Under the pieces are notes generated by a model, which searched no databases, was not told the DNA's origin, and saw only the letters and a program-made list of their open reading frames with translations. Made by a program: the position numbers and the translations under genes. Source: an uncultured Treponema sp. (GTDB taxonomy: Bacteria > Spirochaetota > Spirochaetia > Treponematales > Treponemataceae). From it: DNA of 64,000 bases. The first letter of the stretch is position 1. The number at the start of each line of letters is the position of its first letter. Location of the stretch: assembly GCF_945873775.1 (NCBI RefSeq), contig NZ_CAMCEC010000009.1, positions 1 through 64,000 on the forward strand, read 5' to 3'. Positions 49-53,498 of the stretch are shown here, one piece after another.

Positions 49-471
49 CTAATACCAGTCATAGTCTTCTGTGAATTTTTCGTATTTGACTTCTGCTTCT
101 ATTCCGTGTTTCTGGAAGATTTTTGTGAATATCTGCTGGTCGGATGGAAAAAGCGGTTTCTCGCATCTGTAAAACTGATAGTATTTTGTTCTTCCGTATT
201 TTATAAGGAGTTCCTTTTTTATTTCCGCGGCTTTTTTGTTAGGAATATCGTCAAGAATATTTTTTGTTCCCCAGGCAAGCTTTATTTTCTTGTCTGTCCT
301 AAAATAAGGACAGTCCTCATTTTTCTTTGGAAAAAGAAGCGGATTCAAAACATAAATGCCAATATCATTTTTTGTTAATTGCCTGTAGCAAATTTGCCTT
401 AGGCAATTCCCGGACTTTTTGCAAGCTGAATTCGCGCATAATTTATATTGTTCTGGTGGTGTAAGGTTCAT
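49..471 (-). CDS. DUF6078-like small cysteine-rich protein
   Basis: This encodes a 140-residue cytosolic protein of unknown function with no signal peptide or membrane segment. The N-terminal third has clustered cysteines (C-ANSA-C-KKSGN-C-LRQI-C around residues 12-28, and another near 54), which suggests a metal or Fe-S site. The overall look (N-terminal Cys cluster, then an FPKKNEDCPYF segment and a basic C-terminal half) recalls the DUF6078 family known mainly from Bacteroidetes; this is a recollection, not a search result. The ATG at 471 follows AT-rich DNA without a clear Shine-Dalgarno sequence. The gene is monocistronic here. Confidence 0.6.
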   Translation of the reverse strand: MNLTPPEQYKLCANSACKKSGNCLRQICYRQLTKNDIGIYVLNPLLFPKKNEDCPYFRTDKKIKLAWGTKNILDDIPNKKAAEIKKELLIKYGRTKYYQFYRCEKPLFPSDQQIFTKIFQKHGIEAEVKYEKFTEDYDWY

Positions 472-525
472 TCCTATTAATTATTATACAATAAAAAATC
501 ACATTTACTAAAGAGATTTTTTAGA

Positions 526-552
526 GATTATCGGGTCAATCCCGATAATGAC
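526..552. repeat. REP-like palindromic repeat, copy 1
   Basis: ATTATCGGG and CCCGATAAT form a perfect 9-bp inverted repeat around the loop TCAAT, followed by GAC. The same core plus downstream ACATTAAATTATA is found at 62034-62060, and related copies lie at 13038, 52613 and 54189. All copies are intergenic. Confidence 0.8.
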
Positions 553-589
553 ATTAAATTATAAAATTCGATATTCTGACTATTTAAGC

Positions 590-628
590 AAAAAAATACC
601 TCCCACGTTTTTTTACAAACCTGGGAGG
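590..628 (-). terminator. Rho-independent terminator of the TRAP operon
   Basis: Read on the minus strand, CCTCCCA (628-622) pairs with TGGGAGG (605-599) and is followed by TATTTTTTT. It lies 20 nt after the stop codon of the TRAP permease gene. Confidence 0.8.
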
Positions 629-647
629 CGGATAACTTTCAATGGCT

Positions 648-2702
648 TTATGCTATTGCTTTTGTGCTGTGTATTTTTTTTAGAATCAGCTGGTATGCAA
701 TGAGGATTGCAAGCAGGCTTACTCCTATGATGTCGGTTTTTGCCTCTGGAATTACACAGAGAAGTCCGGCAACGGCAAAGAGAATTCTTTCAGCTGTGTC
801 AAATGCAATTATTGTTGTCTTGCGTTTTCCTGAATTGTAGAAAAATCCAGTGTTGTTGAATCCGTAGCCTTCAAGAGCAACGCTGATTCCGAACATTCCG
901 AGAATTGCGGTTACAATTATCATAACGACAGAAAGAGCGGATGCATTTATCATAAGCATTTTGCTGTTGTAGACAAACATATAAGGAATTATAAATGCGC
1001 CTATGGCAAGTTTTGTCGCATTCAGGGCGGTTTTCATTGGCTTGGCTTTTGCTATTGCGGCACCGGCAATTGCGGCAAGTGCGACTGGAGGCGTAACATC
1101 GGCAATGATTCCAAAGTAGAATGCAAACATATGGGCTGCAAGCGGTTCTATTCCAAGGCTTATGATTGCTCCTGCTGTAATTGTGGAAGTGATAAGGTAG
1201 TTTGCAGTTGTAGGCGCGCCCATTCCGAGGATTATGGAAGCAACCATTGTAAAGACCAAAGTTAATAAGAGTTTTCCGTGCGCCAGCATAACAAGTCCGT
1301 TTCCAAGCCTTAGTCCCAAACCTGTCAGCGTTACAATTCCGATTATGATTCCCGCCATTCCACAGGCAATCGCTACGCTGATTATGTTTCTTGCGGCAGT
1401 GCACATGATTTCAACAATATCTTTTCCGCCGAAAGAAGGCTTGCGTCCATGCGCCAAATCAGAGACAGAAACTCCGAATCCGACCAGAACACAGGCAATG
1501 ATTCCCATTAACGCCGCAAAAACCGCAGTCTTTCCTGCGCAAAGAAAATAAATAATCACAACAAGCGGAAGAATCATATAGCCTTTTTTTAGAAGAAGAG
1601 GCATAAAGCGCGGAAGCTGTTCCTTTGGAAGTCCTTTAAGTCCGAGCTTTTTTGCTTCAAGATGAACGGTTATAAAAATTCCTGTAAAGTAAAGAATCGC
1701 CGGAACAATCGCTGCCTTTACAATCGTTATGTACGGAAGCCCGAGGCTTTCTGCCATAAGAAACGCTGCGGCTCCCATGATTGGCGGCATTATCTGTCCT
1801 CCTGTGGAAGCTGCTGCCTCAACTGCGCCTGCAAATTCGCCTTTGTAGCCTAGCTTTTTCATCATTGGAATTGTGAACGAGCCAGAACCTACAGTGTTTG
1901 AAACAGACGAGCCTGAAACAGTTCCCAAAAGCGCGGAAGACAAAACGGCAACCTTCGCAGGACCGCCGCTCGCTCCTCCTGCAAGCGCATTGCACACGTC
2001 AATAAAAAAGTGCCCGATTCCTGTTTTTTCAAGAAGCGCGCCAAACAGAATAAAAAGAAAAATAAATGTAGAGCATGCGCCGATTGGAGTTCCCATGATT
2101 CCTTCTGTGTTGTAAAAAAGATGGCATACGACACGCTGAAGCGAATATCCTCTGTGATGCAAAAATCCCGGAAGATATTTTCCCGCGAACGCAAACACGA
2201 TAAAAGAGCCTGCTATAATCATAATCGGAAGCCCTACGATTCTCCGGCAGCTTTCAAAAAGAACAAGAATTCCGACAATTCCTATTGCAACATCTAGCGG
2301 CGTGTTGTTTCCAGAGCGTCTTACAAGCGAATCAAAGTTCACGACAATGTAAAGCCAGCAGGCTGCTCCAATCAGTCCAAGCACAATGTCGTACCAAGGA
2401 AGCGTGTTCCGGGGACTGTGTTTTGTTGGAGGAAAAAGAAGAAATGCCAGAAGCTGCACAAAAGCTAAATGTGTTGCGCGAAGAACCTGCGCTGTGATTG
2501 CTCCAGACAAAGTTGCATACAACTGAAAAAGCACAAAAATAACAGAAATAAAAACTGTAATATACTGACGCCAGCATTTGTGTTCACGGTAAGACTGCTC
2601 GCGGTCCAGCTCTTTCATCATCCTCTTCATTTCTTCTTCGTTTGAAGTAGGAAGAAGCTGTTCGATGTAGTCATTAGAGCTTTTGTTTTTGTTGTTTGCC
2701 AT
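648..2702 (-). CDS. TRAP transporter fused permease (TAXI type, DctQM fusion)
   Basis: This is the inner-membrane permease of a tripartite ATP-independent periplasmic transporter. The 684 residues begin with a charged cytoplasmic N-terminus, then about four membrane segments matching the small DctQ-like subunit (roughly residues 45-190), then a large DctM-like bundle (200-600). Signature stretches of the large subunit are visible: GTVSGSSVSNTVGSGSF, GGQIMPPIMGAAAFLMAE and GMGAPTTANYLITS. Fused permeases of this layout pair with TAXI binding proteins, and such a gene lies two genes upstream. It is the last gene of a minus-strand operon, 16 nt after the DUF1850 gene, with an excellent AGGAGG site before ATG 2702. 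Substrate is unknown; characterised TAXI systems move carboxylates such as glutamate or 2-oxoglutarate. Confidence 0.93.
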   Translation of the reverse strand: MANNKNKSSNDYIEQLLPTSNEEEMKRMMKELDREQSYREHKCWRQYITVFISVIFVLFQLYATLSGAITAQVLRATHLAFVQLLAFLLFPPTKHSPRNTLPWYDIVLGLIGAACWLYIVVNFDSLVRRSGNNTPLDVAIGIVGILVLFESCRRIVGLPIMIIAGSFIVFAFAGKYLPGFLHHRGYSLQRVVCHLFYNTEGIMGTPIGACSTFIFLFILFGALLEKTGIGHFFIDVCNALAGGASGGPAKVAVLSSALLGTVSGSSVSNTVGSGSFTIPMMKKLGYKGEFAGAVEAAASTGGQIMPPIMGAAAFLMAESLGLPYITIVKAAIVPAILYFTGIFITVHLEAKKLGLKGLPKEQLPRFMPLLLKKGYMILPLVVIIYFLCAGKTAVFAALMGIIACVLVGFGVSVSDLAHGRKPSFGGKDIVEIMCTAARNIISVAIACGMAGIIIGIVTLTGLGLRLGNGLVMLAHGKLLLTLVFTMVASIILGMGAPTTANYLITSTITAGAIISLGIEPLAAHMFAFYFGIIADVTPPVALAAIAGAAIAKAKPMKTALNATKLAIGAFIIPYMFVYNSKMLMINASALSVVMIIVTAILGMFGISVALEGYGFNNTGFFYNSGKRKTTIIAFDTAERILFAVAGLLCVIPEAKTDIIGVSLLAILIAYQLILKKIHSTKAIA

Positions 2703-2718
2703 TCAAACCTCCTGTAAT

Positions 2719-3234
2719 TTATTTTATATGGTGAAAAATATAATCTGCAATTGAAACATTTTTTATCTGAAAGACTATGCTTGTCTGCGGCTCAAAAAAA
2801 TCAGCAAGAAAATAGTCTGTGCTTTTTCCATTTTTGTCTTGAATGGAAAAAGCGTGGTTTGCCACAATTCCTACAGCCATTACAAGTTTGTCAACAGTTC
2901 TGTTTATATTTGAAATTTCGTAGCCTTCGTCAGTTGACTTAAAAACTGCGCCTGGCATTTCCTGCGGTTCTGGAATTCCGGCTCCGTAAGAAACAAAAAC
3001 TGTTCTGCCGCACACAAGCTTGCGTCCTTTTGATTTGTAGAAATCTTTTACGCGCCCTTTGTTAACCGAATGTGTATAGGAAATTGCAAAGCCGTTCCTA
3101 AAGCCATTCATAGAATAAAATCTTTGCGACGTTTTTTTTCTATTGCTGACTGAAAGAACGGGAAGCGCAGGGAAAATAAAAATTCCCCCTGCCAAAAAAA
3201 TTAAAACAAGAACTGAAAAAAGTCTTTTAGACAA
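2719..3234 (-). CDS. DUF1850 domain protein of the TAXI-TRAP operon
   Basis: This 171-residue protein has one N-terminal membrane or signal segment (LFSVLVLIFLAGGIFIFPALPV) and an extracytoplasmic domain. DUF1850 proteins regularly sit between TAXI binding-protein and fused-permease genes, and this one occupies exactly that position. Its domain contains FAISYTHSVNKGRVKDFY, which fits the family's typical start. The reading frame opens with TTG at 3234 preceded by GGCGGAA; no ATG exists further upstream in frame, and the next ATG would remove the membrane segment. The spacing of 14 nt to the upstream gene supports one transcript. Its role in transport is unknown. Confidence 0.8.
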   Translation of the reverse strand: MSKRLFSVLVLIFLAGGIFIFPALPVLSVSNRKKTSQRFYSMNGFRNGFAISYTHSVNKGRVKDFYKSKGRKLVCGRTVFVSYGAGIPEPQEMPGAVFKSTDEGYEISNINRTVDKLVMAVGIVANHAFSIQDKNGKSTDYFLADFFEPQTSIVFQIKNVSIADYIFHHIK

Positions 3235-3248
3235 ATATTTCCGCCGGA

Positions 3249-4199
3249 TTAGTTTAAGCCAAGCTCGCTGAAATATTTTTTTGCGCCCGGATGAAGCGGA
3301 ACAGAAACGCCTGTTACAGCTGACTGCGCGGAAACTTCTTTTCCTTTTGCGTGGGCAGTTGCAAGGTCTGAAAGATTTTCAAACAAAGCCTTTGTCATTT
3401 CGTATACGATTTCTTCATCAAGCTTTGCATTTACTGCAAGTGTCGCTTTGATTGCAAGAGCCTGTGTGTCAGAATCTGTTCCTTTGTATGTTCCGCCTGG
3501 AATTGTTGTAAGCGTGTAGTATCCGTACTTTTCGCAGATTTTCTTTGCAGCTTCTCCTTCAACTGGAACAAGAGTAAGTCCTGCTGTGAATGCAAGTTCC
3601 TGCAATGCAGCGTTTGGAACACCAGCCGTGATAAAGCATCCGTCCAAAGTTCCGTTCTGAATTCCTTCTGCGGATTCCTTGAATGAAAGGTTGCTCTTCT
3701 TGATGTCGTCGAATGTGAGTCCGTAGCCTTCCATAATTTGCTTTGCATTGAATTCAACTCCAGAACCTGCGTCTCCTACAGAAATGCGCTTTCCTTTGAA
3801 ATCAGCAACAGATTTTATTCCGCTGTCTTTTGAAACTGCGATCTGGACAACTTCAGGATAAAGAGTTCCGATTGTCATAATATTTTCAAGCTTTTCGCCT
3901 TCAAAAAGATCTGTTCCGTTGTAAGCGTAGTCCATTACATCGTTCTGCACAATTGCGTATTCAGCTTCGCCCTTGTTTATAAGACGAAGATTCTCTGCGG
4001 AAGCTCCAGTTGCCTGAGCTGTAACGTTCATATTTTCAATTTTTGTATTCCAAATATTTGCAATTGCTCCGCCAAACGGATAGTATGTTCCGCCAGTTCC
4101 GCCGGTCGCAAGAATGTAGTCTTTTTTAGCATTTGAGCAGCCCGAAAGAAGCAGCCCCGCGCAAATCAACAGCGCGCCAAGTTTTACAATTTTCTTCAT
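3249..4199 (-). CDS. TAXI family TRAP transporter solute-binding lipoprotein
   Basis: This is the extracytoplasmic substrate-binding component of the TRAP system. The chosen ATG at 4199 follows GGAGG at a good distance; an in-frame TTG four codons upstream overlaps that ribosome site and is rejected. The 316-residue product starts with a lipoprotein signal ending in LLLSGC (Cys21), so it is probably tethered to the outer face of the inner membrane. The TAXI signature region ILATGGTGGTYYPFGGAIA follows at about residues 30-47, with the family's ISVGDAGSGVEFNAKQI stretch in the middle. It is the first gene of the operon with DUF1850 and the fused permease. Confidence 0.93.
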   Translation of the reverse strand: MKKIVKLGALLICAGLLLSGCSNAKKDYILATGGTGGTYYPFGGAIANIWNTKIENMNVTAQATGASAENLRLINKGEAEYAIVQNDVMDYAYNGTDLFEGEKLENIMTIGTLYPEVVQIAVSKDSGIKSVADFKGKRISVGDAGSGVEFNAKQIMEGYGLTFDDIKKSNLSFKESAEGIQNGTLDGCFITAGVPNAALQELAFTAGLTLVPVEGEAAKKICEKYGYYTLTTIPGGTYKGTDSDTQALAIKATLAVNAKLDEEIVYEMTKALFENLSDLATAHAKGKEVSAQSAVTGVSVPLHPGAKKYFSELGLN

Positions 4200-4368
4200 A
4201 GAAACCTCCAAAAAATCAACAAAAATACTCTAAACTTTACTATATAATTGCGTTTTTTTCAATTGGGGGACAGTAGAATATAGAAATGAATAGTGTCATT
4301 TTGCAACTTGGAAAGAAGAGAAAAAATAAAATGCTTACTAAAGATTTTTCAGTTTTTATGCTTTCATT

Positions 4369-5331
4369 CTACTTTGAAAATTTCATAAACAGTTTTGCAA
4401 TAGAATTGCAAAGATTAAAGAATTTTTTATTTTTCTCGTAAATTCTGCGGAGAAAAATATATGCTGGAGTTTTTGACATTTCAACTGAATAAAAATCTGT
4501 GTTTAAGTCATAGACATCATGGAACGCAGCTTTTGGATTTGCAAGAATCTTATCAAGTTCTGGATGTTCAGGCTCAAGAATGGATTTTATTATTTCGTTT
4601 TTTGCCATGTCATGAATATGCATTTTTGGGTTTGTGAAAAGATGAAGAACTTTTGCATCATGAATATAAGGCATACATCGGCAGTTTCTATTTATCTGAC
4701 AGTTCCAGATACCGTCAATTTCTGTGATTGCTCCGTTAAGCCTGTAATTTGCTTCGTTTAAAGAAGTCTGGTCAAAAACAGTTCCGTTTGATTTTTCCCG
4801 GCTTTCATTCCAAAGTTCATGCCAAAGAGTAAAAAGGGCATCGGATTTTTCTGAGCCATTAACACTCATAAAACCTCCGTTAAAATGCTTGTCATCATAG
4901 CCGTCATGCCAGCCAAATTCCTTTGCATTTTTTTCAAAGAAGTCTTTTACTGGACTTTCCGAAATTTTCATGTGGCGGTTTAAAACCATGCCAACAGCAG
5001 GTTCTTTAGGCAAGTCTTCAAGTGATTCATAAATAATTGTGTCGCAATCTATATAAACGAAATCTCTTGGCAAATATTTATTCATTGATGTTTTTATAAA
5101 TCTTGAACGGTCTCTGTTATTAAATTTTTCTGGAACATCAACTGTAATAATATTTACACTGTATTTTTCAAGAATTGTTCTTTTGTCTTTGAATGTAGAT
5201 TTTGTATCTTTATCAACTAAAATATATACATTTGCATCTGGCATTACTTTTCTTAATGTCATAATGCTTATTGCTGTCTGTTCATAAAATGTGTCGTTCG
5301 GTGTGCTTATTAAAATATATGCAATATTCAT
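4369..5331 (-). CDS. Putative glycosyltransferase (GT-A fold)
   Basis: This 320-residue cytosolic protein resembles nucleotide-diphospho-sugar transferases of the GT8-like group. The N-terminus MNIAYILISTPNDTFYEQT begins a Rossmann-like sugar-nucleotide fold, YIDCDTIIYES near residues 95-105 supplies the metal-binding D-x-D, and a HFNGGFMSVN stretch and a late VLHLFT histidine match conserved positions of the family. It lies at the edge of the polysaccharide locus but is transcribed alone. The donor and acceptor cannot be read from the sequence. Confidence 0.75.
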   Translation of the reverse strand: MNIAYILISTPNDTFYEQTAISIMTLRKVMPDANVYILVDKDTKSTFKDKRTILEKYSVNIITVDVPEKFNNRDRSRFIKTSMNKYLPRDFVYIDCDTIIYESLEDLPKEPAVGMVLNRHMKISESPVKDFFEKNAKEFGWHDGYDDKHFNGGFMSVNGSEKSDALFTLWHELWNESREKSNGTVFDQTSLNEANYRLNGAITEIDGIWNCQINRNCRCMPYIHDAKVLHLFTNPKMHIHDMAKNEIIKSILEPEHPELDKILANPKAAFHDVYDLNTDFYSVEMSKTPAYIFLRRIYEKNKKFFNLCNSIAKLFMKFSK

Positions 5332-5477
5332 TTTTATAGTATATTATTAAATAAATGTTTTTTCAATGAAAAAGTATTTTCAATAAATATGCAACAACAT
5401 TGCTTAGTGCTTAAAATATGCAATAATATGGCTCTTAGATGAATAAGTTTTTATTTTCTAGGCAATCTGCTTATTGG

Positions 5478-5903
5478 TCAAAAACATTCCTTTATATATT
5501 CTCGGTTTTGATAGTAAAAGTCTGTGTTGAATCTGCTTATGCTGTCGCTGACCCAGGAATTGTAAACTTTGAACAGGCTTTCAATTATGATGTCAACATT
5601 TTCATTCGGCTGGACATCCTCAATAAGGCGCTCATACACTTCACCTATTGTCCAGTAATCAGGAACTTCATATTTGCATTTTACAACATTGTCAAAATCG
5701 CCTGTTTTTATGGAGCACATATTTATAAATTCTTCCGCAACGCTGTCTATCACCTCGAAATGCAGAACATCTGAATGGGTATATATTCTTTTCACAACAC
5801 TCTTGCCCAATGTATTTACAATATATGCTCTCTTTTGTTTTTGTCTGCGGCCAATAAATTCGATTAAGCTGCAAGTATAAAACAGCGCGTTATCATTCTT
5901 CAT
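5478..5903 (-). CDS. Small protein partnered with DUF3990-type gene
   Basis: This 141-residue cytosolic protein of unknown function contains ALFYTCSLIEFIGRR, VPDYWTIGEVYERLI and YYQNREYI stretches that I associate with a small gene found directly after DUF3990 genes in Firmicutes and treponemes. Its ATG overlaps the stop codon of a truncated upstream reading frame by 11 nt (ATGAAGAATGA), which shows that the two were translationally coupled. The upstream gene is now only a fragment (5893-6051), so this partner is probably orphaned. DUF3990 is related, as I recall, to ADP-ribosyltransferase folds, so a toxin-antitoxin-like role is possible but unproven. Confidence 0.6.
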   Translation of the reverse strand: MKNDNALFYTCSLIEFIGRRQKQKRAYIVNTLGKSVVKRIYTHSDVLHFEVIDSVAEEFINMCSIKTGDFDNVVKCKYEVPDYWTIGEVYERLIEDVQPNENVDIIIESLFKVYNSWVSDSISRFNTDFYYQNREYIKECF

Positions 5904-6051
5904 CGGTAACCTCGTATGAATCTATGAATTTTAAGCATTTCAAGGCTTCTTCCGTATTGAAGCTTATTTGATGTGTCGGGTATTTGAATTCTACCAAGCT
6001 CCAAAAATTTTTCCTGCTGATTTTGCCGTCAATGAAGAAAACATTTTTTTT
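5893..6051 (-). pseudogene. Truncated DUF3990-like C-terminal fragment
   Basis: The minus-strand frame here has no start codon and encodes 52 residues. The tail HQISFNTEEALKCLKFID followed by SYEVTDEE and a stop resembles the C-terminus of DUF3990 proteins. The frame begins directly after the acyltransferase stop codon (6052-6054), so the 5' part was removed exactly where the acyltransferase gene now ends. It overlaps the start of the intact partner gene by 11 nt. A recombination that brought in the acyltransferase probably truncated it. Confidence 0.6.
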
Positions 6052-7110
6052 CTATTTAATCAATAAGTTTATTTTTTTGTTGTTGATTTTATAACCTATC
6101 ATACAAACAAAAAAACTTAAAAAGGTTGTGAGCAAGAATTTTGTGATTGGAGAATTTGCAAAAACAGGATATAAATGAATTAGCCCTATTGATATTATTT
6201 CAAGTATAAATCTATGCATAAAATACATTCCTGAGCTTAAATTTCGTAATATTGACATTTGTCTTTTTGGAAATGGAATATGCAAGGCTATAAGAAAAAT
6301 GCAGGCGATAAAATAAGGTAAAAATATAAATAATGAATGGTCATCCATCAGGAACTGTTTATTTTGCTCTGCAAAGTAAATCTCTGCACATAATAACAAA
6401 AATAAAATTGGAGAGATACAACAAACTATCTTGTTGTATTGTTTGTTCCATTTTTTGTTTATTTCATAGCATTTTATTCCTATTGCAAGATCAAAAAATC
6501 CCACAAAGAGACCATTCCGGGCAATTTTGAAAAATTTGGCATATAGTTCTATCATGCTGGAAAAAAACGGAATGTCTTTGATAATGTAATAGTAAGTGTT
6601 GCAAATCAAGGCGAACGAATATAAAAAGATTCCAATAGAAATTGCTAGATTTATTTTATTTCTTTTTAGAAATGGATATAAAAATATAATTCCAAATATG
6701 CAGGCAGAAAGAAACCACATTGCTCCAGGCGGATCAAATAAAATCCTCTGAATGGTTCTTACAAACCATTTTATTGAAAACTGATAATTGTTGATGATTT
6801 TTAGAAACACATCAAGCAATATATTCAGTGTAACATAAAATAAAAGTGGAACTAATATTCTTCGTATATATGATTTTATTGTCTGTTCAATTCCACCCCC
6901 CCCGGATTTTTCAAGCTTTGACATAAAGAAAAAACCGCTTGCAACAAAAAAGAAAGGAACTGCAAGTCGAAATATGCAGTGCAAAATATACCAGCCAGTT
7001 CTTCCAAATATAGACTCTATATTACAATGTATAGCAATAACACATAGCATGAAAAAGAATTTTAATACATCTACAAAATTATACTCTTTTTTATTAGTTC
7101 CGATTTTCAT
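6052..7110 (-). CDS. Membrane acyltransferase (Acyl_transf_3), phase-variable
   Basis: This 352-residue integral membrane protein has about ten helices and the hallmarks of acyltransferase family 3, which O-acetylates or acylates surface sugars. FFMLCVIAIHCNIES near residue 17 carries the catalytic-type histidine, and VPFFFVASGFFFMSK follows. Directly after the first helices a G8 run (plus-strand C8 at 6896-6903) encodes SGGGG in a cytoplasmic loop. The gene is in frame at eight bases; a gain or loss of one base would truncate the protein after about 70 residues. It is divergent from the glycosyltransferase at 7189. Confidence 0.88.
   Translation of the reverse strand: MKIGTNKKEYNFVDVLKFFFMLCVIAIHCNIESIFGRTGWYILHCIFRLAVPFFFVASGFFFMSKLEKSGGGGIEQTIKSYIRRILVPLLFYVTLNILLDVFLKIINNYQFSIKWFVRTIQRILFDPPGAMWFLSACIFGIIFLYPFLKRNKINLAISIGIFLYSFALICNTYYYIIKDIPFFSSMIELYAKFFKIARNGLFVGFFDLAIGIKCYEINKKWNKQYNKIVCCISPILFLLLCAEIYFAEQNKQFLMDDHSLFIFLPYFIACIFLIALHIPFPKRQMSILRNLSSGMYFMHRFILEIISIGLIHLYPVFANSPITKFLLTTFLSFFVCMIGYKINNKKINLLIK
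6896..6903 (-). repeat. Poly-G tract (G8) in acyltransferase
   Basis: Eight consecutive C on the plus strand read as G8 in the coding strand, within codons for Ser-Gly-Gly-Gly-Gly. It is in frame at this length. Confidence 0.9.
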
Positions 7111-7188
7111 AATGTTGTATAATTGTACAATGTTTTATAAAATTATAATAGTAAGTAAGGTTAATAAAAACACTAAAGATAGGTTTAT

Positions 7189-8202
7189 ATGAAATATTTA
7201 TTTTTATCTCCAAAAGATGACAATTATACATTTTATTATTCTGATTTATTAAAAAATAAAGATGTTTTGTGGGTAAATACCTCTTTGAATAAAAAAGGGC
7301 TCATTGGTTTTCTTTACGGAATTCATATATCTAAAAAACTTAATAAAATTATCAATATTCCGTTCAAAGATATTTGGATTCAGAATTATAAAACAAAAAA
7401 AATAAAGGACTTTATAAAAACTGATGAAAAATGCATCGTTTTGGTTTTTAGGCATTCCTTTTTCTTGTTTTATCGTCATTCTTATGAAAAATGGCTGAAA
7501 AAAATAAATCCTAATATAAAAATATGCTTCTTGTTTGCGGATATTGTTGATTCTTATAAAAAAGGTTTTGACATAAATATTGCAAAAAATAAATTTGATG
7601 CGCTGTTCTCATTTGATAAAGAAGATTCGCAAAAATACGGACTGGTTTATTATCCTCATATAGTGCCGTTTCCTGCCAATATAGAAATTCAGAATGTCCG
7701 GGGGGGGCAAAAGTATAGTATATATTTTATGGGAAGAGCAAAAAAACGATTGAATTTGCTTGTTGAAATATATAAAAAATTAAAACAGAATGGAATAAAA
7801 GTCTTATTCGAAATTGCAGGAGCAAAAGAAAGCGAGCGGACATTTTTTGATGAAAATTTTCAATATATAGATTTTATTACATATAAAGAATATTTAAGAA
7901 GATGTTCAAATGCAGATTGCTTGCTTGAAGTTATGCAGTCAACTTCCAATACTGGTTATACAACACGAGTTTTGGAAGCTATTTCTTTGAATAAAAAACT
8001 TATCTCAAATAATCAGGATTTAATAAATGCTCCGTTTTATGATAAAAAAATGCTGTCAACTTTCACATCAGAAAATGATTTTAATATAGAATTTTTAAAT
8101 AAAACAAATACTCCTTTGCATTGGAATTATGATAGCTATCAATACTCCGCGGACAAACTGCTGTCATTTTTGAGAGAATATTTGTATAAAAAAGACAAAT
8201 AG
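7189..8202 (+). CDS. Glycosyltransferase-like protein, phase-variable
   Basis: This 337-residue cytosolic protein resembles CgeB/capsular-type glycosyltransferases with a GT-B fold. The C-terminal half carries the recognisable donor-site region: YFMGRAKKRLNLLVEIY, CLLEVMQSTSNTGYTTR and VLEAISLNKKLISNN. A G8 run at 7700-7707 encodes Arg-Gly-Gly between the two lobes; the gene is in frame at this length and slippage would remove the donor-binding half. It is convergent with the GT4 gene at 8213 and divergent from the acyltransferase. DNA around it is very AT-rich, as elsewhere in this locus. Confidence 0.75.
   Translation: MKYLFLSPKDDNYTFYYSDLLKNKDVLWVNTSLNKKGLIGFLYGIHISKKLNKIINIPFKDIWIQNYKTKKIKDFIKTDEKCIVLVFRHSFFLFYRHSYEKWLKKINPNIKICFLFADIVDSYKKGFDINIAKNKFDALFSFDKEDSQKYGLVYYPHIVPFPANIEIQNVRGGQKYSIYFMGRAKKRLNLLVEIYKKLKQNGIKVLFEIAGAKESERTFFDENFQYIDFITYKEYLRRCSNADCLLEVMQSTSNTGYTTRVLEAISLNKKLISNNQDLINAPFYDKKMLSTFTSENDFNIEFLNKTNTPLHWNYDSYQYSADKLLSFLREYLYKKDK
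7700..7707 (+). repeat. Poly-G tract (G8) in glycosyltransferase
   Basis: GTCC is followed by eight G and then CAAAAG, encoding Val-Arg-Gly-Gly-Gln in frame. Confidence 0.9.
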
Positions 8203-8212
8203 AATATTATTT

Positions 8213-9415
8213 TTATTGCAATATTATTTGTGAAAGTCTTTGCAAATCTTTTTTCTGAAATTCACTTATATAGGCAAATCTTTCTAGCCCATTTTTTGAA
8301 CATTCATTATAAATTTCTTTGTCAGAAAGCTGCAGTATTCTATTCTTGATTTCATAAATAGAATATGGGTCGAAATAAATTGCCGCATTTCCACAAACTT
8401 CTGGAATGGAAGATGACCCGGAAGTTATGACAGGAACTCCATACTTCATTGCAGATAGTGGTGGATAACCAAAGCCTTCATTTAATGATGGATATATAAA
8501 AGCATAGGAATTCTCAAAAAGACATTCTAATTCATCTCGTTCTATATAATCTAATAATACAAAATTTTCTTTATGTTTTATTTCCTTTTTAAATATCTTC
8601 TTGTTTATGACACCTGTAAGCACTAATTTATAATCACAAAATTTTTTATCATCAAGTATTAGGTCGAAAGCTTGAATTGCCCTTATTGCATTTTTTATCC
8701 AGCGTTCAGCATTTGTAAGTAAAAAGTACTTTTTTGCTTCAATATTGATTTTTTCTTTTATTTTTGAAAATTCAATTGATTTTATTGAATTATTTTCTAG
8801 TTGATTGAAAGATGGTGAATAGCAAATTTTTATATTTTCTTCCTTGATTTGTGGATAAAAAGAAAGAATTGAAAATTTTGAATGATTTGAAACTGTGATA
8901 ATTTTTATATTTGGTCGGATTAAATTATTAATGCTGCTGTTTGATACGATTCTTTTTATTTCTTTTTCTTTGAAAAGAAATTGTTTTACAATCTTTTTTA
9001 TTATGTTGAATTTCTGTTTATTTGTTGAACAATATTTCAGTTCTATAGAATTTGCAGGCATTTCTATTTGTCTTAGTCCATGAATTGTTACTATTGTTTC
9101 ACAAAAGTCTAATTTCCATCCAAGACTTTGCTGTATTAATGGTGAATAGAAACGGTCTATTTTATATTTTTGTAAAATTTCAGTAGGTTTTACTTCTTTT
9201 ATATCAATAAGTATAACTCCAAGACTTTTTGCTTTTTCAATTAAATCTATATTTATATATCTTGAAGAATCGTATGCAGCATATAAGTTTATATCATCTT
9301 TATTATAACTATAAATAATTTTGTTAAATACAACTTCTGCGTAATCCCCCCCCCCGTGAAATTTAGAGCCTCTGATAGGTTGTGTGCTGGTAAGGTCAAA
9401 AAGAATATTTTTCAT
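8213..9415 (-). CDS. GT4-family glycosyltransferase, phase-variable
   Basis: This 400-residue cytosolic retaining glycosyltransferase is probably involved in assembling the surface polysaccharide. The C-terminal donor domain has the GT4 pattern AFIYPSLNEGFGYPPLSAM and then VPVITSGSSSIPEVCGNAA. The usual E-x7-E motif reads EGFGYPPLS, so the second Glu is replaced by Ser. A G10 run (9346-9355) lies about 20 codons from the start in KFHGGGDYAEV, in frame at ten. It starts 3 nt after the flippase stop and is the last gene of the Wzi-flippase-GT4 operon. Confidence 0.88.
   Translation of the reverse strand: MKNILFDLTSTQPIRGSKFHGGGDYAEVVFNKIIYSYNKDDINLYAAYDSSRYINIDLIEKAKSLGVILIDIKEVKPTEILQKYKIDRFYSPLIQQSLGWKLDFCETIVTIHGLRQIEMPANSIELKYCSTNKQKFNIIKKIVKQFLFKEKEIKRIVSNSSINNLIRPNIKIITVSNHSKFSILSFYPQIKEENIKICYSPSFNQLENNSIKSIEFSKIKEKINIEAKKYFLLTNAERWIKNAIRAIQAFDLILDDKKFCDYKLVLTGVINKKIFKKEIKHKENFVLLDYIERDELECLFENSYAFIYPSLNEGFGYPPLSAMKYGVPVITSGSSSIPEVCGNAAIYFDPYSIYEIKNRILQLSDKEIYNECSKNGLERFAYISEFQKKDLQRLSQIILQ
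9346..9355 (-). repeat. Poly-G tract (G10) in GT4 gene
   Basis: Ten C on the plus strand form the longest G run in the window. It encodes His-Gly-Gly-Gly-Asp close to the N-terminus, where slippage would abolish the protein. Confidence 0.92.
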
Positions 9416-9418
9416 TTT

Positions 9419-10981
9419 TTACTGTCCTTTTTGTGAATATTGTTTTTTTATTGGTAATTTAAGGTTTAACGCTTTAGACATATAAATATATGCAAAACTG
9501 AACAAAGTTGTTGCAATAACTCCAGTTATTATTAGTGTGAGAATAAAAGTTTTTGTTGCATCAGACTTTGGAATGAATTTTGTTGTTATAAATGTTATTA
9601 TACAAATAAAAATGCTTGTAGCTGCAATTATTCCTTCGAATAAAAAATATTTAACAGTCTTATTATTTTTATAGTAAAGCTTAAATAAAAATTGCCCGTT
9701 CCAAAAATGACCAACAGTTATTGATATTACGGTGGCAAGTATGACTCCGTATATTCCCATCAGTTTTACAAGTATAAAATTTCCAATTATATTCAACAAA
9801 GATTCTGCAATAGCCCTGTATTTTCCATCCCACCACATACCTGATGCGTTAAAATAAAGAGAATTCATGTCTCCAGATTTCATTATATAGAAATATGAAC
9901 ATATTAGAATAACTGCTCCAAATGGCAGAAGAAATTCTTCTCCTAACCAAAGTCGCATAAATGGCTGGTACATACATAACATACATGTTGTACACCAGCC
10001 GGAAAATAAGGTATAAAACAGATTGAATTTTTTTAGATTTTCATAATTTTTTTCTTTTGTTTCTGTTTGAAGAGTGTTACCAACTCCTGCTTGCAGGGAA
10101 TTAATAACTATATTTAAAATTCCTGTAATTGCAGAAATAACAAGAAGATAGTTTGAATAAATTGTTGTCATTGCAAGACCAAGAAAAGCGCTTATAAAAA
10201 TGCTGTCAAAACTGTTTCTTGAAGTTTGTGCAAGTTTACTTATCATCAATCCTGCAACTTTTTTTCTTATGTCTTTTTTTACTGATATATCGAGTTTTCC
10301 TTTGCATGAATATTCAGGGAACATTCTTTTTGTCTCAATTCCAACCATAACATTGTTAAGAACTGTAAAAATCGGCATCATTAAGACATATAAATAATAA
10401 TTTTTTATTGTAACGAGAATAAGCAGCTGGCAGATATTCATCAGTCCCTGGGTTATTGTAAGTATGTTGCTTATTACATCCCGTCTTTGGTGTGCATTTA
10501 ACAGTGAATTTTTATAGCCAAATAAAAGATAGCTCAAAGATGTGTTTACTAAATAAATACTGTAAAGTACATATATGTTTATATCCTGTGGAATATTTCC
10601 CTTTATAAGATGCGGCAGGAATGGCATTACCGCTGTTCCCAGTGCAAGAATGACAAGCCCGATTATAAAATAAACTCGTTTGTAAAAATTAAGAAGCGCG
10701 CAGATTGTGTCTTTGTCATCTTCTGCAATAGGTTTGTACATGGAGTAGACAACAGCACTTGCGAAACCTAATTCTGTAAGATTCAACACTTGCAGAATCG
10801 ATGAAAAAAGGCTGTTCAGACCAGCATACTCAATTCCGATTTTCTTAATAAGAACGGTTCGTATTAAAAATGGAAAAAATATAGTAAAAATTTTGTTGAA
10901 CATTCCGCTGTATATGTTTCTAACAGCATTTTTTGTACGAGAGAGTTTTATTTTGGGTTTTAATATTTCTTGTTCTGACAA
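9419..10981 (-). CDS. Polysaccharide flippase (Wzx/MOP superfamily)
   Basis: This 520-residue integral membrane protein with about 14 helices belongs to the MOP flippase superfamily that moves lipid-linked oligosaccharides across the inner membrane. The start of the domain, NAVRNIYSGMFNKIFTIFFPFLIRTVLIKKIG, and LTELGFASAVVYSMYKPIA are typical of polysaccharide biosynthesis flippases. Translation begins at a TTG (10981), 11 nt after the Wzi-like gene, with AGGAA upstream. It is the middle gene of the operon between the Wzi-like protein and the GT4 enzyme. Confidence 0.9.
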   Translation of the reverse strand: MSEQEILKPKIKLSRTKNAVRNIYSGMFNKIFTIFFPFLIRTVLIKKIGIEYAGLNSLFSSILQVLNLTELGFASAVVYSMYKPIAEDDKDTICALLNFYKRVYFIIGLVILALGTAVMPFLPHLIKGNIPQDINIYVLYSIYLVNTSLSYLLFGYKNSLLNAHQRRDVISNILTITQGLMNICQLLILVTIKNYYLYVLMMPIFTVLNNVMVGIETKRMFPEYSCKGKLDISVKKDIRKKVAGLMISKLAQTSRNSFDSIFISAFLGLAMTTIYSNYLLVISAITGILNIVINSLQAGVGNTLQTETKEKNYENLKKFNLFYTLFSGWCTTCMLCMYQPFMRLWLGEEFLLPFGAVILICSYFYIMKSGDMNSLYFNASGMWWDGKYRAIAESLLNIIGNFILVKLMGIYGVILATVISITVGHFWNGQFLFKLYYKNNKTVKYFLFEGIIAATSIFICIITFITTKFIPKSDATKTFILTLIITGVIATTLFSFAYIYMSKALNLKLPIKKQYSQKGQ

Positions 10982-10992
10982 TTAAATAATTC

Positions 10993-12690
10993 CTATAGCC
11001 TGTATTTTAAAGCAAGCTCAAAATGCCAGTTGTTAATCTGATCATTTCCTACAGTTTCTTTGTCTTCATTTCTTATGTTGTAAAGTGGATTTATTATTAA
11101 GTCGAATGCAGCTCCAGCTGTTGCAGAAAAGTTTTTGGTAATGAAATATGTGGTTGTTGCTCCAAAATAGTAATTTGCTTTGAATGCATGACTATATTTT
11201 ATCTCTGTTTCATTTGTATTTGAATTTATTGCCTTTGCATAGATATAGTTATTGTCTGGATTATTTCTGCCTATACACAAAAATGTAGAACCTTTTGGAT
11301 AATAGATCCTATATTCGAGGTGCTGGGAATTTCCTCCATATCCAATTCCTGAGCCTAGCCACTGACCTCTGTTTGTGTATCCCTGTGTGATTTGATAATG
11401 AAATCCAAAACTGTAACCACCGACAAGCTGGTAGTTCTGCGACATTTCTGTATTGTTCCATTCAAATATAAGTTCGCTGTATATCTTTTTTTCTTCTGAA
11501 ATTGTAATTGATTTTTTTGCGCCCACAGTGTATGTCATTGTATGCGTAAGATAACGCTGGTAGCCTTTGAATCCGCCTCCCGGAGCATAATCGTCAGTTC
11601 CGATTTCTCCGTAGATTTCAAAACCTACAGAAGGAAACAAGTAATCTGCTGTAAAAGAAAATTTCTGATCTTCTCCGGCTCCTTTTTCTCCTACATGGGT
11701 ATTGTTGCCAACAGGTATTATATATTTTAGATTTTCCTTTGAGGATTTTACAAGGCAAGTTCTGTTTAGGCCAATAGTAAGTCCAGGCAAAAATGATGGA
11801 GCGTAACTGAATGTAAATCCATGGATTAAGTTATGGTCGTTGCCAGAGTCATTGTCAAAATATTTTGATTCTGTTAAATATCCTGTCCAAATTCTTCCTT
11901 CGATGTGGCCAATATTCCATCCTGTATGAGGTATGTGAATTTCTGTTTTTCTTAAACCTATATCAAATTTTGGATATGTAGCGGCATTATTAGAATGAAG
12001 CATTGGATTTAAGAATGCAGGTCCTAGCCAAATTGCCTGTGTTCCAAATCCGGCTGTAAGGTTTTTCCAGGAGTATCTTGCTTCTGTGTCTCCCCAGTCA
12101 AATGTCCAGAAAGACGAATCTCCAAAACGCTGCGGAGCATCTGCTCCTGTGTCATTTCCATATCCCCAAATATATGCGTATTTGTTTGTATAATATGCGC
12201 TGTTGTCAAAAAGTTCAAATTCCTTGTTCTGGCTCCAGCTTATTTGCGGCTTGAATGTCAGTTCGAGTCCGTAGGCTTCTAGTCTTGCGCCGGCGGTCAG
12301 ACTTGTGTTGTAGCCTTTTCCTTGCCAGAGCGCGCCGTCGTTTTGTCCGTAAGGGGCTTTTGTGTTGTAGCTGTTGAACCATTCAGGACCATAGAGTTTG
12401 AGTTTTACACTGCGGTCGATTTCGGATGTGAACCAGTTTGTTTCTGTTGCGTCTAATTCATATAAGATGCGTTTTGTTCCAAGATTGTTACCTTTCCAAA
12501 TGTGGTCTTCATCTGTAATCTGCCATTCGCTGTCGCTTAACGTGCGATAGTTTAGTGTCGGGCGTTCTGCCGCTCCAGTAAGGCTTAAAAAGTCGTAGTA
12601 TTCTTCTTCTGTTGATTTTAAGGCTTCCTGAGCAAATACTGCTGAAAAGATAGAAAGCGCAATTGGCATTATAAAGTTGATTTTTTTCAT
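10993..12690 (-). CDS. Wzi-like capsule-assembly outer membrane protein
   Basis: This is a probable outer membrane beta-barrel that anchors or helps assemble surface polysaccharide. From ATG 12690 the product has 565 residues and a clean signal peptide (MKKINFIMPIALSIFSAVFA, cleavage before Gln). Wzi-family features include FGTQAIWLGPAFLNPMLHS, a strongly alternating aromatic pattern and a C-terminal strand ending KYRL. A TTG 14 codons upstream is in frame but would spoil the signal peptide. The ATG is only 6 nt after a TATAAT box, so the mRNA is probably leaderless. It heads the operon with the flippase and GT4 gene. Confidence 0.82.
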   Translation of the reverse strand: MKKINFIMPIALSIFSAVFAQEALKSTEEEYYDFLSLTGAAERPTLNYRTLSDSEWQITDEDHIWKGNNLGTKRILYELDATETNWFTSEIDRSVKLKLYGPEWFNSYNTKAPYGQNDGALWQGKGYNTSLTAGARLEAYGLELTFKPQISWSQNKEFELFDNSAYYTNKYAYIWGYGNDTGADAPQRFGDSSFWTFDWGDTEARYSWKNLTAGFGTQAIWLGPAFLNPMLHSNNAATYPKFDIGLRKTEIHIPHTGWNIGHIEGRIWTGYLTESKYFDNDSGNDHNLIHGFTFSYAPSFLPGLTIGLNRTCLVKSSKENLKYIIPVGNNTHVGEKGAGEDQKFSFTADYLFPSVGFEIYGEIGTDDYAPGGGFKGYQRYLTHTMTYTVGAKKSITISEEKKIYSELIFEWNNTEMSQNYQLVGGYSFGFHYQITQGYTNRGQWLGSGIGYGGNSQHLEYRIYYPKGSTFLCIGRNNPDNNYIYAKAINSNTNETEIKYSHAFKANYYFGATTTYFITKNFSATAGAAFDLIINPLYNIRNEDKETVGNDQINNWHFELALKYRL

Positions 12691-12696
12691 ACGTAG

Positions 12697-12726
12697 ATTA
12701 TAACTTTTTTGACATGATAGAATCAA
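12697..12726 (-). promoter_or_regulatory. Promoter of the Wzi-like operon (leaderless type)
   Basis: On the minus strand TTGATT, an 18-bp spacer and TATAAT are followed by CTACGT and the ATG. The predicted transcription start coincides with the start codon. Confidence 0.65.
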
Positions 12727-12769
12727 CTGCAAATTTCTTTTATAAATTGAAAAAAGTGAAGTTTTTCTA

Positions 12770-12798
12770 TTGACATAATTTATTCAAATTGATATAGT
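12770..12798 (+). promoter_or_regulatory. Promoter of tRNA-Leu
   Basis: TTGACA (12770-12775), a 17-bp spacer and TATAGT (12793-12798) lie about 25 nt upstream of the tRNA 5' end. Confidence 0.85.
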
Positions 12799-12823
12799 AT
12801 TATCACACTTTGCAAAAAGCAAT

Positions 12824-12905
12824 GCGGGGATGGTGGAATTGGTAGACACGCCAGCTTGAGGTGCTGGTGGCGCAAGCTGTGCCTGTTCAAGTCAGGTTCT
12901 CCGCA
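12824..12905 (+). tRNA. tRNA-Leu (anticodon GAG)
   Basis: The acceptor arms GCGGGGA and TCTCCGC pair (one G-U). The anticodon stem CCAGC/GCTGG encloses TTGAGGT, giving anticodon GAG at 12858-12860. The long variable arm (GGCGCAAGCTGTGCC region) fits a class II leucine tRNA, and GGTAGACAC and GTTCAAGTC mark the D and T arms. CCA is not encoded; the discriminator base is A. It reads CUC and CUU leucine codons. Confidence 0.95.
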
Positions 12906-12910
12906 CTTAA

Positions 12911-12937
12911 GGACTGCTAAATTGCAGTCCTTTTTTT
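12911..12937 (+). terminator. Terminator of tRNA-Leu
   Basis: GGACTGC and GCAGTCC form a perfect 7-bp stem with a 6-nt loop, followed by seven T. Confidence 0.92.
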
Positions 12938-13037
12938 ATAGTTGAATTGTATTATAATAAACTTGGGTAAGTATAAAAAAATCAAAATTTACTATAATGC
13001 CTAAATTGGGAGTTTTTATAAAATTAACTGATTAACT

Positions 13038-13076
13038 GTCATTATCAGGCTTGACCCGATAATCTGTTGTAAATTT
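13038..13076. repeat. REP-like palindromic repeat, copy 2 (degenerate)
   Basis: GTCATTATCAGGCTTGACCC is followed by GATAATCTGTTGTAAA. The two ATTATC/GATAAT arms pair with one mismatch around CTTGA. The flanking TGTTGTAAA also flanks the copy at 61986. Confidence 0.7.
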
Positions 13077-13145
13077 ATGGCGGTTTTTATCAGAACTCTA
13101 AATTGAACTTAGTATGTCTTTATGTGTTTTCCTGCAAATCATCAA

Positions 13146-13754
13146 TTATTTATCTTTTGTAATTTCTGAAATTTTTTTGAGTAAAAGTTCTGTTAAGATT
13201 TTGTCTGTGATAAAAATTGACAAAAGTGCGATTATTGCGATAAATGCTACTATTGCAAAAAAGAATCTTTCGTTGGTTTGATTTTCCCGCCAGTTGAATT
13301 TTCCAGAAACTATGACTTGATAATTTTTTCCGCTGATTTTTATTTTTGTGCCGTATATGCTCGCGCCTTCTGAATTTATGCTTCCTTTTCCGCCGAGCTC
13401 GTAAAGAAATTCTTTTAATTTTTGAGCTTCTGGAGTCTGGCTTCCGACTGAACGCGCTGTTTTTCCGTCTTCAGAAATTGCTTCAAGAAAAATTCCGTGG
13501 GTGTCCGCATAATCAAGCATGGAAAGAAAACTTTCGCTGTCGGTTTTTCCGTTTTTTATGTAGGATTTCATCTGGTGAATCATCATTACGTAAGCAAGTT
13601 TGAGCCTTGAGTCTTCAACAGATTCGTCCATGTACTGCCTGAAAAAAATGTTCCAGAATAAAAGTCCTGCCAAAACTGTTGCGGCTGTTCCTGCCAAAAA
13701 TGGAATTATAATCATAAGAATGTTGGAAAGAAAAATATGTTTTTTTATTGTCAT
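13146..13754 (-). pseudogene. N-terminal fragment of a sensor kinase-like protein
   Basis: The 202-residue product has a first membrane helix (ILMIIIPFLAGTAATVLAGLLF), an extracytoplasmic domain of about 130 residues and a second helix (AIVAFIAIIALLSIFITDKIL), then stops after only about 17 cytoplasmic residues (LLKKISEITKDK). This is the architecture of the sensing half of a membrane histidine kinase, but HAMP, HisKA and ATPase domains are absent and no continuation is visible downstream, where only a REP-like repeat and the tRNA lie. It may be a decayed kinase. A genuine small two-helix membrane protein cannot be excluded. Confidence 0.55.
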
Positions 13755-13835
13755 GGCTGTTATTTAAATTTTCTTTTTTAAGGCACGATTAAAAATCTGT
13801 TAGTTTTCTGTTAAAATGCAAAATTAAAAAACTTC

Positions 13836-13864
13836 TTGCTATTTTTTTTGCCGGGTTTTACAAT
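13836..13864 (+). promoter_or_regulatory. Promoter of ade (leaderless type)
   Basis: TTGCTA, a 17-bp spacer and TACAAT end 6 nt before the ATG at 13871. No Shine-Dalgarno sequence is present. Confidence 0.6.
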
Positions 13865-13870
13865 TTCAGC

Positions 13871-15601
13871 ATGAATGCAAAGAAACTTTCGCTCCTTATA
13901 AACGCTGCTTCTGGAAAATGCGAGGCGGAGCTTGTGATAAAAAATTGCCGTGTTGTAAATCCAATAACGCGGACTGTAAAAAATGCAGACATTGCTGTGG
14001 AGCAGGGATTGATTGCCGGCGTTGGCTCGTACCACGGAAAAACTGAAATTGATGCGCATGGGCTTTTTGCGGTTGCGGGGCTTATTGACGCTCATGTTCA
14101 TATTGAATCTTCAATGTGCACGCCGGAATCTTTTGCTCAGCTTGTAGTTCCAAAAGGCACAACAACAGTAATTGCCGATCCTCACGAAATTGCGAATGTC
14201 AGCGGTTCTGAAGGAATTCACTTTATGATTAATTCCGCACGTCGGGTTCCGTTAAAAGTTCATTTTATGATTCCGTCTTGCGTTCCTGCCACTGGCTTTG
14301 AAGATTCCGGGGCTGCCCTTGATTCAGAGGCTGTTGAAGAGCTTTTGAAAAAGCCTGAAATTTTGGGACTTGGAGAATTGATGAACGCTCCCGGTGTTTC
14401 GTCCTGCGATTCTGAAGTTCTGGAAAAAATTTGTGCGGCAAAAAATGCTCAGAAAATTATAGACGGACATGCGCCTGGCTTGAATGGTTTTTCTTTGAAT
14501 GCTTATTCCGCGGCAGGAATAAAAACTGACCATGAATGCAGTTCTCCACAGGAAGTTTTGGAGCGACTTGAAAACGGAATGTATGTTCTTTTGCGCCAAG
14601 GTTCTGCTGCCCAAAATCTTGCGGAAATTCTTCCTTCTGTAACAAGAGAAAATTCCAGAAGATGCGCAATGTGCACTGACGACAAGCATCCTCAGGATAT
14701 AATTGAATTCGGGCATATAAACGCAAACCTTAAGCTTGCTGTAAAAAACGGGCTTGACTGTTTTACTGCAATTGCAATGGCGACCGTGAACGCTGCGGAA
14801 TGCTACGGCTTGAATGATGTCGGGCTGATTGCGCCAGGATATTCTGCGGACATTGTTCTTTTTAATAATCTTGAGGATTTTGAGGCTGAAAAAGTTTTTA
14901 TAGACGGAAAACTCGCTGCGGAAAATGGAAAGGCTGTTTTTGAAATCCGCAATAGGGTAGACAAGGCTGTAACTCATTCTGTTCATATAAAGCCATTTAT
15001 AATAGAAGATTTAGAAATAAAATTGAATTCTGAAAACGCAAAAGTCATAAGTTTAAAAAATCATGAGCTTGTAACAAAATGCGAAATTCGGAAAGTGAAT
15101 TTGACAAACGGAATTTTTGACTGCAAAAAAAATCCGCAGATTCAAAAACTTATTGTAATGGAGCGGCACAAGAAAAGTGGAAAAATCGGAAAAGGCCTTA
15201 TAGAAAACTATGGAATTCACGGCGGAGCGATTGCCACTACAATTGCCCATGATTCCCACAATATTATTGCCGCAGGAGACAACGACAGCGATATTTTTAT
15301 TGCGGTAAATGAACTTAACAAAATGGGCGGCGGGATTATTCTTGTAAAGCGCGGAACTGTCATTGGCTCTTTGTCTCTTCCGATTGCGGGCTTGATGTCT
15401 GATAAGAATTTTGCGGAAGTAAGCAAAACTCTGAAAAATCTTTTGGAGCTTGCTTGGAATGAGCTTGGAATCAGCCGCGAAATTGAGCCTTTTATGACAC
15501 TTTCATTTTTAAGCCTGCCTGTGATTCCTGAAATAAAACTTACTCCGCGCGGACTTTTTGATGTCAATGAATTCAAATTCACGCCGATTGAAGCTGACTG
15601 A
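13871..15601 (+). CDS. ade: Adenine deaminase
   Basis: This cytosolic amidohydrolase converts adenine to hypoxanthine and ammonia in purine salvage. The 576 residues match the usual family length. Metal-binding and catalytic segments are visible: GLIDAHVHIESSMCTPESFA, IADPHEIANVSG, IIDGHAPGLNG, TDHECSS and MCTDDKHPQDI with the catalytic-type Asp. The C-terminal domain has GIHGGAIATTIAHDSHNIIA and ELNKMGGGIILV. The ATG at 13871 follows a TACAAT box by 6 nt, which implies a leaderless or very short leader. It is monocistronic. Confidence 0.95.
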   Translation: MNAKKLSLLINAASGKCEAELVIKNCRVVNPITRTVKNADIAVEQGLIAGVGSYHGKTEIDAHGLFAVAGLIDAHVHIESSMCTPESFAQLVVPKGTTTVIADPHEIANVSGSEGIHFMINSARRVPLKVHFMIPSCVPATGFEDSGAALDSEAVEELLKKPEILGLGELMNAPGVSSCDSEVLEKICAAKNAQKIIDGHAPGLNGFSLNAYSAAGIKTDHECSSPQEVLERLENGMYVLLRQGSAAQNLAEILPSVTRENSRRCAMCTDDKHPQDIIEFGHINANLKLAVKNGLDCFTAIAMATVNAAECYGLNDVGLIAPGYSADIVLFNNLEDFEAEKVFIDGKLAAENGKAVFEIRNRVDKAVTHSVHIKPFIIEDLEIKLNSENAKVISLKNHELVTKCEIRKVNLTNGIFDCKKNPQIQKLIVMERHKKSGKIGKGLIENYGIHGGAIATTIAHDSHNIIAAGDNDSDIFIAVNELNKMGGGIILVKRGTVIGSLSLPIAGLMSDKNFAEVSKTLKNLLELAWNELGISREIEPFMTLSFLSLPVIPEIKLTPRGLFDVNEFKFTPIEAD

Positions 15602-18058: not shown

Positions 18059-18061
18059 CGT

Positions 18062-52678: not shown

Positions 52679-53498
52679 TTACTCGTAGGAAACTGTTACT
52701 GTTCCTGTTAAGCCTTCAAGGCCACCCAGATAAATTCCTTTGGAATATTCAGAAATGTCAGAAATTTCTAATTTATAACCACTGCTGGTGTCATCATATT
52801 CAATATTTGCTTTCCATGTAGAAGAATCTGTACCTATGGCGAACCACCAATCTCCATTTGAAGTTCCTGTTTGAACATCTGAGATTGTAATTGTTACTTT
52901 ACTAGCAGAATTTACAGTTTCATATTTCACTAAAAGTTGATATTGGCTAGAAATTGTAAAACTTGCGCTTCCTGTATTTGAAGTGAATGATTTAATCAAG
53001 GCTTCTTCACCAGTATCACCTGATTCTTCTGCTTCGCCTTCAATATAGAATACTGAAACGCTGGCTGTTGCGCTATCTGTACCTGCGATGTAGATTCCGT
53101 TTGCTTTGTATGCGGCGATTGCTGTTGCATCTGTGATTGTTGCAAGGTAAAGCGAGCTTGTTCCTTCGCCTGACTGCCATTCAAGTTTTACCTCATTGCT
53201 CCATGAGCTGTCAGAACAAGCTGTGAACCACCAGTCATCGCTTCCTGAATAGTTTACATTTATTACTTTTATTGTAAGCGATTTTATGCTCAGGTCTGCA
53301 AGTGTTTCCGCTGAAACTATTTGTTCTGGTGTTTCTGAGAATGTTACGCTGTCGCTGTATATTTTTGTTCCGTAGTCGTCATCATCGTCATCGCTGCTTG
53401 AGCTTCCGTTGCTGCAAGAAATGAGTGCCCCCCCCCAGAAGAATTGCAAAGGCTGAAAAGAATACCGCAGTTAAAATGTTTTTCTTTATAAATTTCAT
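52679..53498 (-). pseudogene. Carbohydrate-binding lipoprotein, phase-OFF at G9
   Basis: ATG 53498, preceded by AAGGAAAC, opens MKFIKKNILTAVFFSAFAIL and reaches a G run at 53428-53436. With the nine G present here the frame ends after 36 codons. With eight (or eleven) it would continue LGGALISCSNGSSS, a proper lipobox with acylated Cys, into about 250 residues. The body has two related modules (SGSDDWWFTACSDSSWSNEV and NGDWWFAIGTDSSTWKANI), probably sugar-binding. It lies between the GH53 galactanase gene and a secreted binding protein gene. It is probably a phase-variable surface galactan-binding protein, caught in the OFF state. Confidence 0.8.
53428..53436 (-). repeat. Poly-G tract (G9) in lipoprotein signal peptide
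   Basis: Nine C on the plus strand. The count puts the signal peptide out of frame with the mature protein; eight G would restore the reading frame through the lipobox LISC. Confidence 0.9.

Follow-up and report, generated by a model that had tools for sequence, protein, structure and literature searches.

Why three long runs of G should lie within the enzyme genes of a single surface polysaccharide locus of an uncultured Treponema, and whether they serve as switches, is the question raised by the 64,000-nucleotide stretch of DNA analysed in this study (hereafter, the window). We regarded the locus as one for a surface polysaccharide because genes for a GT4 glycosyltransferase, a WaaS/CpsH-family glycosyltransferase, an acyltransferase and a Wzi-like protein occur together in it, with a flippase recognized by a weak match. 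Its genes are the following.

4369..5331, minus strand, GT8-like glycosyltransferase (PF01501, E 4e-5, just under the cut-off and marginal)
6052..7110, minus strand, acyltransferase family 3 (PF01757, E 7e-26), intact
7189..8202, plus strand, WaaS/CpsH-family glycosyltransferase (NF053598, 108 bits against a cut-off of 60), intact
8213..9415, minus strand, GT4 glycosyltransferase (PF00534), intact
9419..10981, minus strand, Wzx/flippase-like membrane protein (NF041503, E 0.002, below the cut-off and weak)
10993..12732, minus strand, Wzi-like capsule assembly outer-membrane protein (PF14052, E 4e-12)

The acyltransferase showed no homologue at E<=1e-15 among 145 congeners, and the homologues of the WaaS/CpsH-family enzyme are just 25-32% identical, with no tract at the equivalent site in the single one that was aligned. 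GT4 homologues from rumen Treponema are 47% identical, and since the named relatives by this enzyme include T. ruminis, T. zioleckii and treponemes of rumen or gut metagenomes, a commensal life of this Treponema appears likely. The GT8-like and flippase-like genes are both conserved in a sister species described below, and an Rfam search of the window gave no match.

The original prediction, which was made from the letters of the window, had named three poly-G tracts in this locus as independent switches. Their positions and lengths proved exact, and all three genes are open across the tract.

6896-6903, minus strand, G8 tract in the acyltransferase (codons 70-73 of 352, residues SGGGG), in frame
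7700-7707, plus strand, G8 tract in the WaaS/CpsH-family glycosyltransferase (codon 171 of 337, residues RGGQ), in frame
9346-9355, minus strand, G10 tract in the GT4 glycosyltransferase (codons 21-23 of 400, HGGG motif), in frame

Runs of G or C are rarely long in the window: 50 reach four bases or more, seven reach five or more and four reach eight or more, the complete set of the latter being C8 at 6896-6903, G8 at 7700-7707, C10 at 9346-9355 and C9 at 53428-53436. The distribution of run lengths is bimodal, with almost none at 5-7 and a rise again at 8-10. Judging by the numbers of runs of 2-4, one would expect 0.009 runs of at least eight in the window against the four observed; under Markov models of order 1-3 the expectation is 0.009-0.09 per 64 kb. 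It had also been claimed that a one-base slip would destroy each protein, and this was borne out by stop codons 3-19 codons past the tract in both other frames of all three genes. Each tract therefore combines two of the marks of a contingency locus, as it is a G/C homopolymer of at least eight within a reading frame, beyond chance, and a one-base change in its length truncates the protein. All three are coding, and none is of the promoter-spacer type that is found elsewhere in this genome. The spacing of the three tracts, within 2.46 kb, was also considered as evidence by clustering and was dropped, as its genome-wide P is 0.09.

The fourth run of eight or more had been placed in a surface lipoprotein. 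It does lie in a lipoprotein gene, but the gene is not intact, because the lipobox and body (ALISCSNGSSSS) are out of register with the signal peptide, which ends in SAFAIL. A G9 likewise stands at this tract in the sister species.

53428..53436, minus strand, G9 tract within the signal peptide of the lipoprotein, the gene being out of frame here
52679..53449, minus strand, lipoprotein body, open frame from a weak internal TTG

The three tract genes of the polysaccharide locus share a segment of distinct base composition, with 27% GC against 33-41% around it.

6038..9484, no strand, cassette with all three tract genes, 27% GC, its flanks syntenic with the sister species

When 200 congeners were searched with DNA of the cassette, no copy carrying the tracts turned up in them, and the search led to the genome of the sister species (G168), a single 2.73-Mb contig. 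This genome matches the window at 55-6037 and 9484-18782 with 90-95% identity and the order kept, and lacks segment 6038-9484, in place of which stands an unrelated 3.7-kb cassette of 29% GC with an IS1595-type transposase and another acyltransferase. The latter is out of frame, its N-terminal part lying in one frame and the remainder, which is acyltransferase family 3 by Pfam, in another. It harbors a G10 tract that aligns with the tract of the window acyltransferase, just past the second membrane helix, the residues at the two aligned tracts being GGGIEQ and GGGREY. One slot thus holds two different poly-G acyltransferases, ON here and OFF in the sister species. At the cassette edge (5900-6037), 138 bases match the sister species at 100%, the rest of the block at 92%, and weaker copies of this element occur elsewhere; it is possibly a recombination site or a small conserved element.

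In the whole genome (2.59 Mb, 49 contigs) we observed 60 tracts of G8-G11. Approximately 29 of them lie inside genes, about 15 of these in frame and about 14 with the frame broken there, according to a partly manual annotation, and the assignment to genes or promoters leaves out nine tracts (numbers 3, 15, 16, 21, 24, 38, 47, 50 and 54). Lipoproteins, outer-membrane proteins, chemoreceptors and glycan genes make up most of the targets; the coding ones include BspA-type leucine-rich repeat lipoproteins and a solute-binding lipoprotein, and an EcoRI-type restriction endonuclease (PF02963, E 6e-132) has its tract in frame. Glycan targets comprise a GT2 (broken), a fusion of YidC-like and sulfatase domains, a tandem cytidylyltransferase (broken) and the three window genes. 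The remark that no housekeeping gene carries such a run, which had been made for the window, broadly holds across all 60 tracts.

At least 13 of the 60 tracts occupy the spacer of near-consensus TTGACA/TATAAT promoters, with spacers of 14 to 19. On the G strand, at least ten of the 12 consensus positions were matched at 11 of the 60 tracts, as compared with one among 433 runs of G4 and 0.9% of sites taken at random, and two further spacer promoters (tracts 37 and 40) were found on the opposite strand. Most of the genes driven by these promoters encode lipoproteins; an outer-membrane barrel protein and one chemoreceptor are also among their products. An FdtA and a YfhO gene have tracts in weaker promoter-like sites. 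At promoter tracts 48 and 53 the spacing differs by one in the sister species. In two other promoter-like sequences, L052 (tract 2) and L068 (tract 22), poly-G lies about 15 bases upstream of the -35 box, ahead of genes for a chemoreceptor and a GGDEF-EAL protein, respectively; these two tracts may alter the spacing to an upstream regulator site.

Variation in length was observed at other tracts of this genome, as the segment orthologous to the three window tracts is absent from the sister species. Within the genome, seven DELEPGTY-type lipoprotein paralogues carry a tract at the same place, and the gene is open in all four with G8 and broken in all three with G9; a near-identical pair of BspA-type genes differs by one base, the C9 copy being in frame and the C8 copy broken. 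In comparison with the sister species, an indel was found in the windows of ten of the 19 tracts that fell within longer alignments, against 32 of 604 control windows of the same width in the same alignments (P 4e-8). Where the flanks are at least 95% identical, eight of ten tracts differ in length, such as G8 against G10 in 99.8% identical DNA. The reading frame changes with them, tracts 14 and 32 being intact here and broken there, and tract 8 broken here and intact there. As regards other congeners, the tracts of the YidC-like/sulfatase fusion stand at different positions in G018 and G066, a further tract lies in an acyltransferase of G015 (broken), and another in a sugar nucleotidyltransferase of G066. 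Among 59 congeners, 56 have tracts of G9 or longer, and so do 57 of 58 genomes in a sample spanning the order.

Whether these tracts are selected switches has to be weighed against simpler accounts. They might be passive, if glycines that the proteins require happen to be written with GGG and no switching is selected. The GT4 tract lends itself to such an account, as it encodes a conserved Gly-Gly-Gly loop found in homologues from Treponema, Fibrobacter, Bacteroidales and others, so that its glycines are needed for another reason and the oddity is one of codon choice alone. However, none of 21 homologues has a G run of more than five at this motif, which they encode with mixed Gly codons. The glycines are old, and it is their encoding by one repeated codon that sets this genome apart. 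GGG makes up only 5.5% of the glycine codons, and if codons are sampled according to usage while the protein is kept unchanged, the probability of at least eight G in a row is 0.01 in the acyltransferase, 0.0009 in the WaaS/CpsH-family gene and 0.006 in the GT4 gene. Tracts of the same length class moreover stand at sites that encode no glycine, namely within promoter spacers and ahead of signal peptides, and we consider passive tracts very unlikely.

It could also be argued that the tracts are real, while the differences in length and the broken frames are sequencing or assembly errors, to which homopolymers are prone. Such errors could account for single length differences in some individual cases, and they do not explain the whole pattern, as they can neither create tracts nor place them in promoter spacers. 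In the same alignments, A/T runs of seven or more had indels around them in just four of 36 cases (P 0.002 against the poly-G tracts); length fits frame consistently in the seven paralogues; and some differences between orthologous tracts are base substitutions or lost flanking bases. We therefore judge error as the general source of the differences to be highly improbable. A third account would have the tracts tune the output of full-length protein through ribosomal or transcriptional slippage, giving mixed frames rather than a heritable change of DNA. Homopolymers of this kind can indeed make polymerase slip, and some broken genes, among them the window lipoprotein, have G9 in both species, which would fit a tolerated frame break. 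Yet DNA length does differ at orthologous sites and tracts in promoter spacers cannot act in this manner, which makes this account unlikely as well.

Slipped-strand phase variation, on the other hand, is well supported by the sibling tracts and the sister species, given the length differences and the flips between intact and broken genes, and we are highly confident that the three glycan-gene tracts are contingency loci within a genome-wide poly-G set of about 60 switches. As a reading of that set, phase variation is backed by the placement of the tracts, by the roughly half of the coding tracts that are out of frame, by the flips in the sister species and by the replaced cassette; length change at the three tracts themselves was not observed, and we infer their slippage, the loss of enzyme activity and the altered surface glycan from the rest. 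In the mechanism we propose, a G run would slip by one base during replication through slipped-strand mispairing, putting the gene out of frame and leaving a truncated, inactive enzyme, and a second slip would restore the frame, so that the loss would be both heritable and reversible. All three glycan genes are ON in this assembly. The poly-G set would work in two ways, through the reading frame where tracts are coding and through the distance between -35 and -10 where they lie in promoters. A change in the sugar decoration or acylation of the surface polysaccharide would be expected upon switching, because the tract genes form a swappable cassette between the conserved flippase, Wzi and GT8-like genes, and such switching may be of benefit under immune, phage or competitor pressure. 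The eight glycan states that had been proposed are a formal upper bound, since the enzymes may act in sequence, in which case several tract combinations could look alike and yield fewer distinct structures.

The control of glycosyltransferases and acyltransferases by frame switching is a classical theme in Neisseria and Campylobacter. Together with Helicobacter, these genera harbor simple-sequence contingency loci with phase-variable LOS or capsule glycosyltransferases and acetyltransferases (PMC5953494, PMC11868660). Our data resemble these systems in the G/C homopolymers within glycosyltransferase and acyltransferase genes, the ON/OFF control by frame and the multi-locus repertoire that includes restriction enzymes. 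They differ in that the genes here are unrelated, the host is a spirochaete, length variation was seen at other tracts of the genome and the phenotype is a predicted one. In T. pallidum, poly-G between the -35 and -10 elements of tp0126 sets promoter spacing and transcription with an optimum of 17 nt, and the promoters of tpr genes (tprE/G/J, tprL), which are controlled in like manner, and of tp0126 have poly-G of 8-10 whose length varies within isolates (PMC7864442). The same promoter layout recurs at no fewer than 13 sites of this genome, whereas the three tracts of the window lie in the coding sequence of glycan enzymes, and in a Treponema of gut/rumen type. A survey of cultivable treponemes, in the portion accessible, counts G and C tracts of at least seven, ties tracts to pseudogenes in T. 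pedis and finds the fewest in T. ruminis, these being counts given there without assignment to glycan loci or promoters (PMC8049484). In a literature search of limited coverage, we came across no account of phase-variable glycans in treponemes.

The mechanism is thus already known from T. pallidum, Neisseria and Campylobacter, and novelty lies in the lineage of the host, in glycan genes as targets and in the exchange of the cassette. We think it fairly likely that these probably commensal gut/rumen-type treponemes maintain a phasome of about 60 loci, in which one poly-G module serves both frame and promoter spacing and extends to lipoproteins, chemoreceptors, an EcoRI-type restriction enzyme and glycan cassettes that pass horizontally between genomes, the enzymes brought in by them acquiring tracts time and again. 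Whether multi-locus phase variation is confined to pathogens has been raised as a question (PMC11868660), and a phasome of this size in commensal treponemes would, if true, be a counter-example. Poly-G phase variation would also be extended from the membrane-protein promoters of T. pallidum to enzymes of glycan synthesis in a relative of rumen treponemes that can be cultivated, where direct tests of slippage, of surface sugar and of phage or host responses might be feasible. As a warning for annotation, about 14 'pseudogenes' of this assembly are probably switched-off genes.

Several other loci were noticed. The EcoRI-family endonuclease (L084:3255-4115; G000:C23, tract 12025-12033) has its G9 near codon 26 with a likely DNA methyltransferase downstream, and is a candidate phase-variable restriction enzyme. 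The YidC-like domain fused to a sulfatase-type (phosphoglycerol-transferase-like) domain is encoded at 28458-31154 of the window (minus strand) and again at G000:C9:85112-87823, and this fusion family is present in 88 of 118 genomes of the genus, with poly-G at differing positions in some copies. Two tandem cytidylyltransferase domains (L074:12306-13201; G000:C15:12735) are separated by a frame-breaking G8, at which a slip would fuse or separate them. In the BspA-type family (L058, L061, L085, L087, L088, L091, L055), a poly-C tract lies between the start codon and the signal peptide; its members have leucine-rich, Listeria-Bacteroides or FGE-sulfatase domains, and most copies are broken in this assembly. 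A TagO/WecA-like initiating glycan transferase (L064; G000:C5:118825-118835) carries G11 at its N-terminal/start region, with G10 in the sister species, and this tract could switch all downstream glycan built on that carrier.
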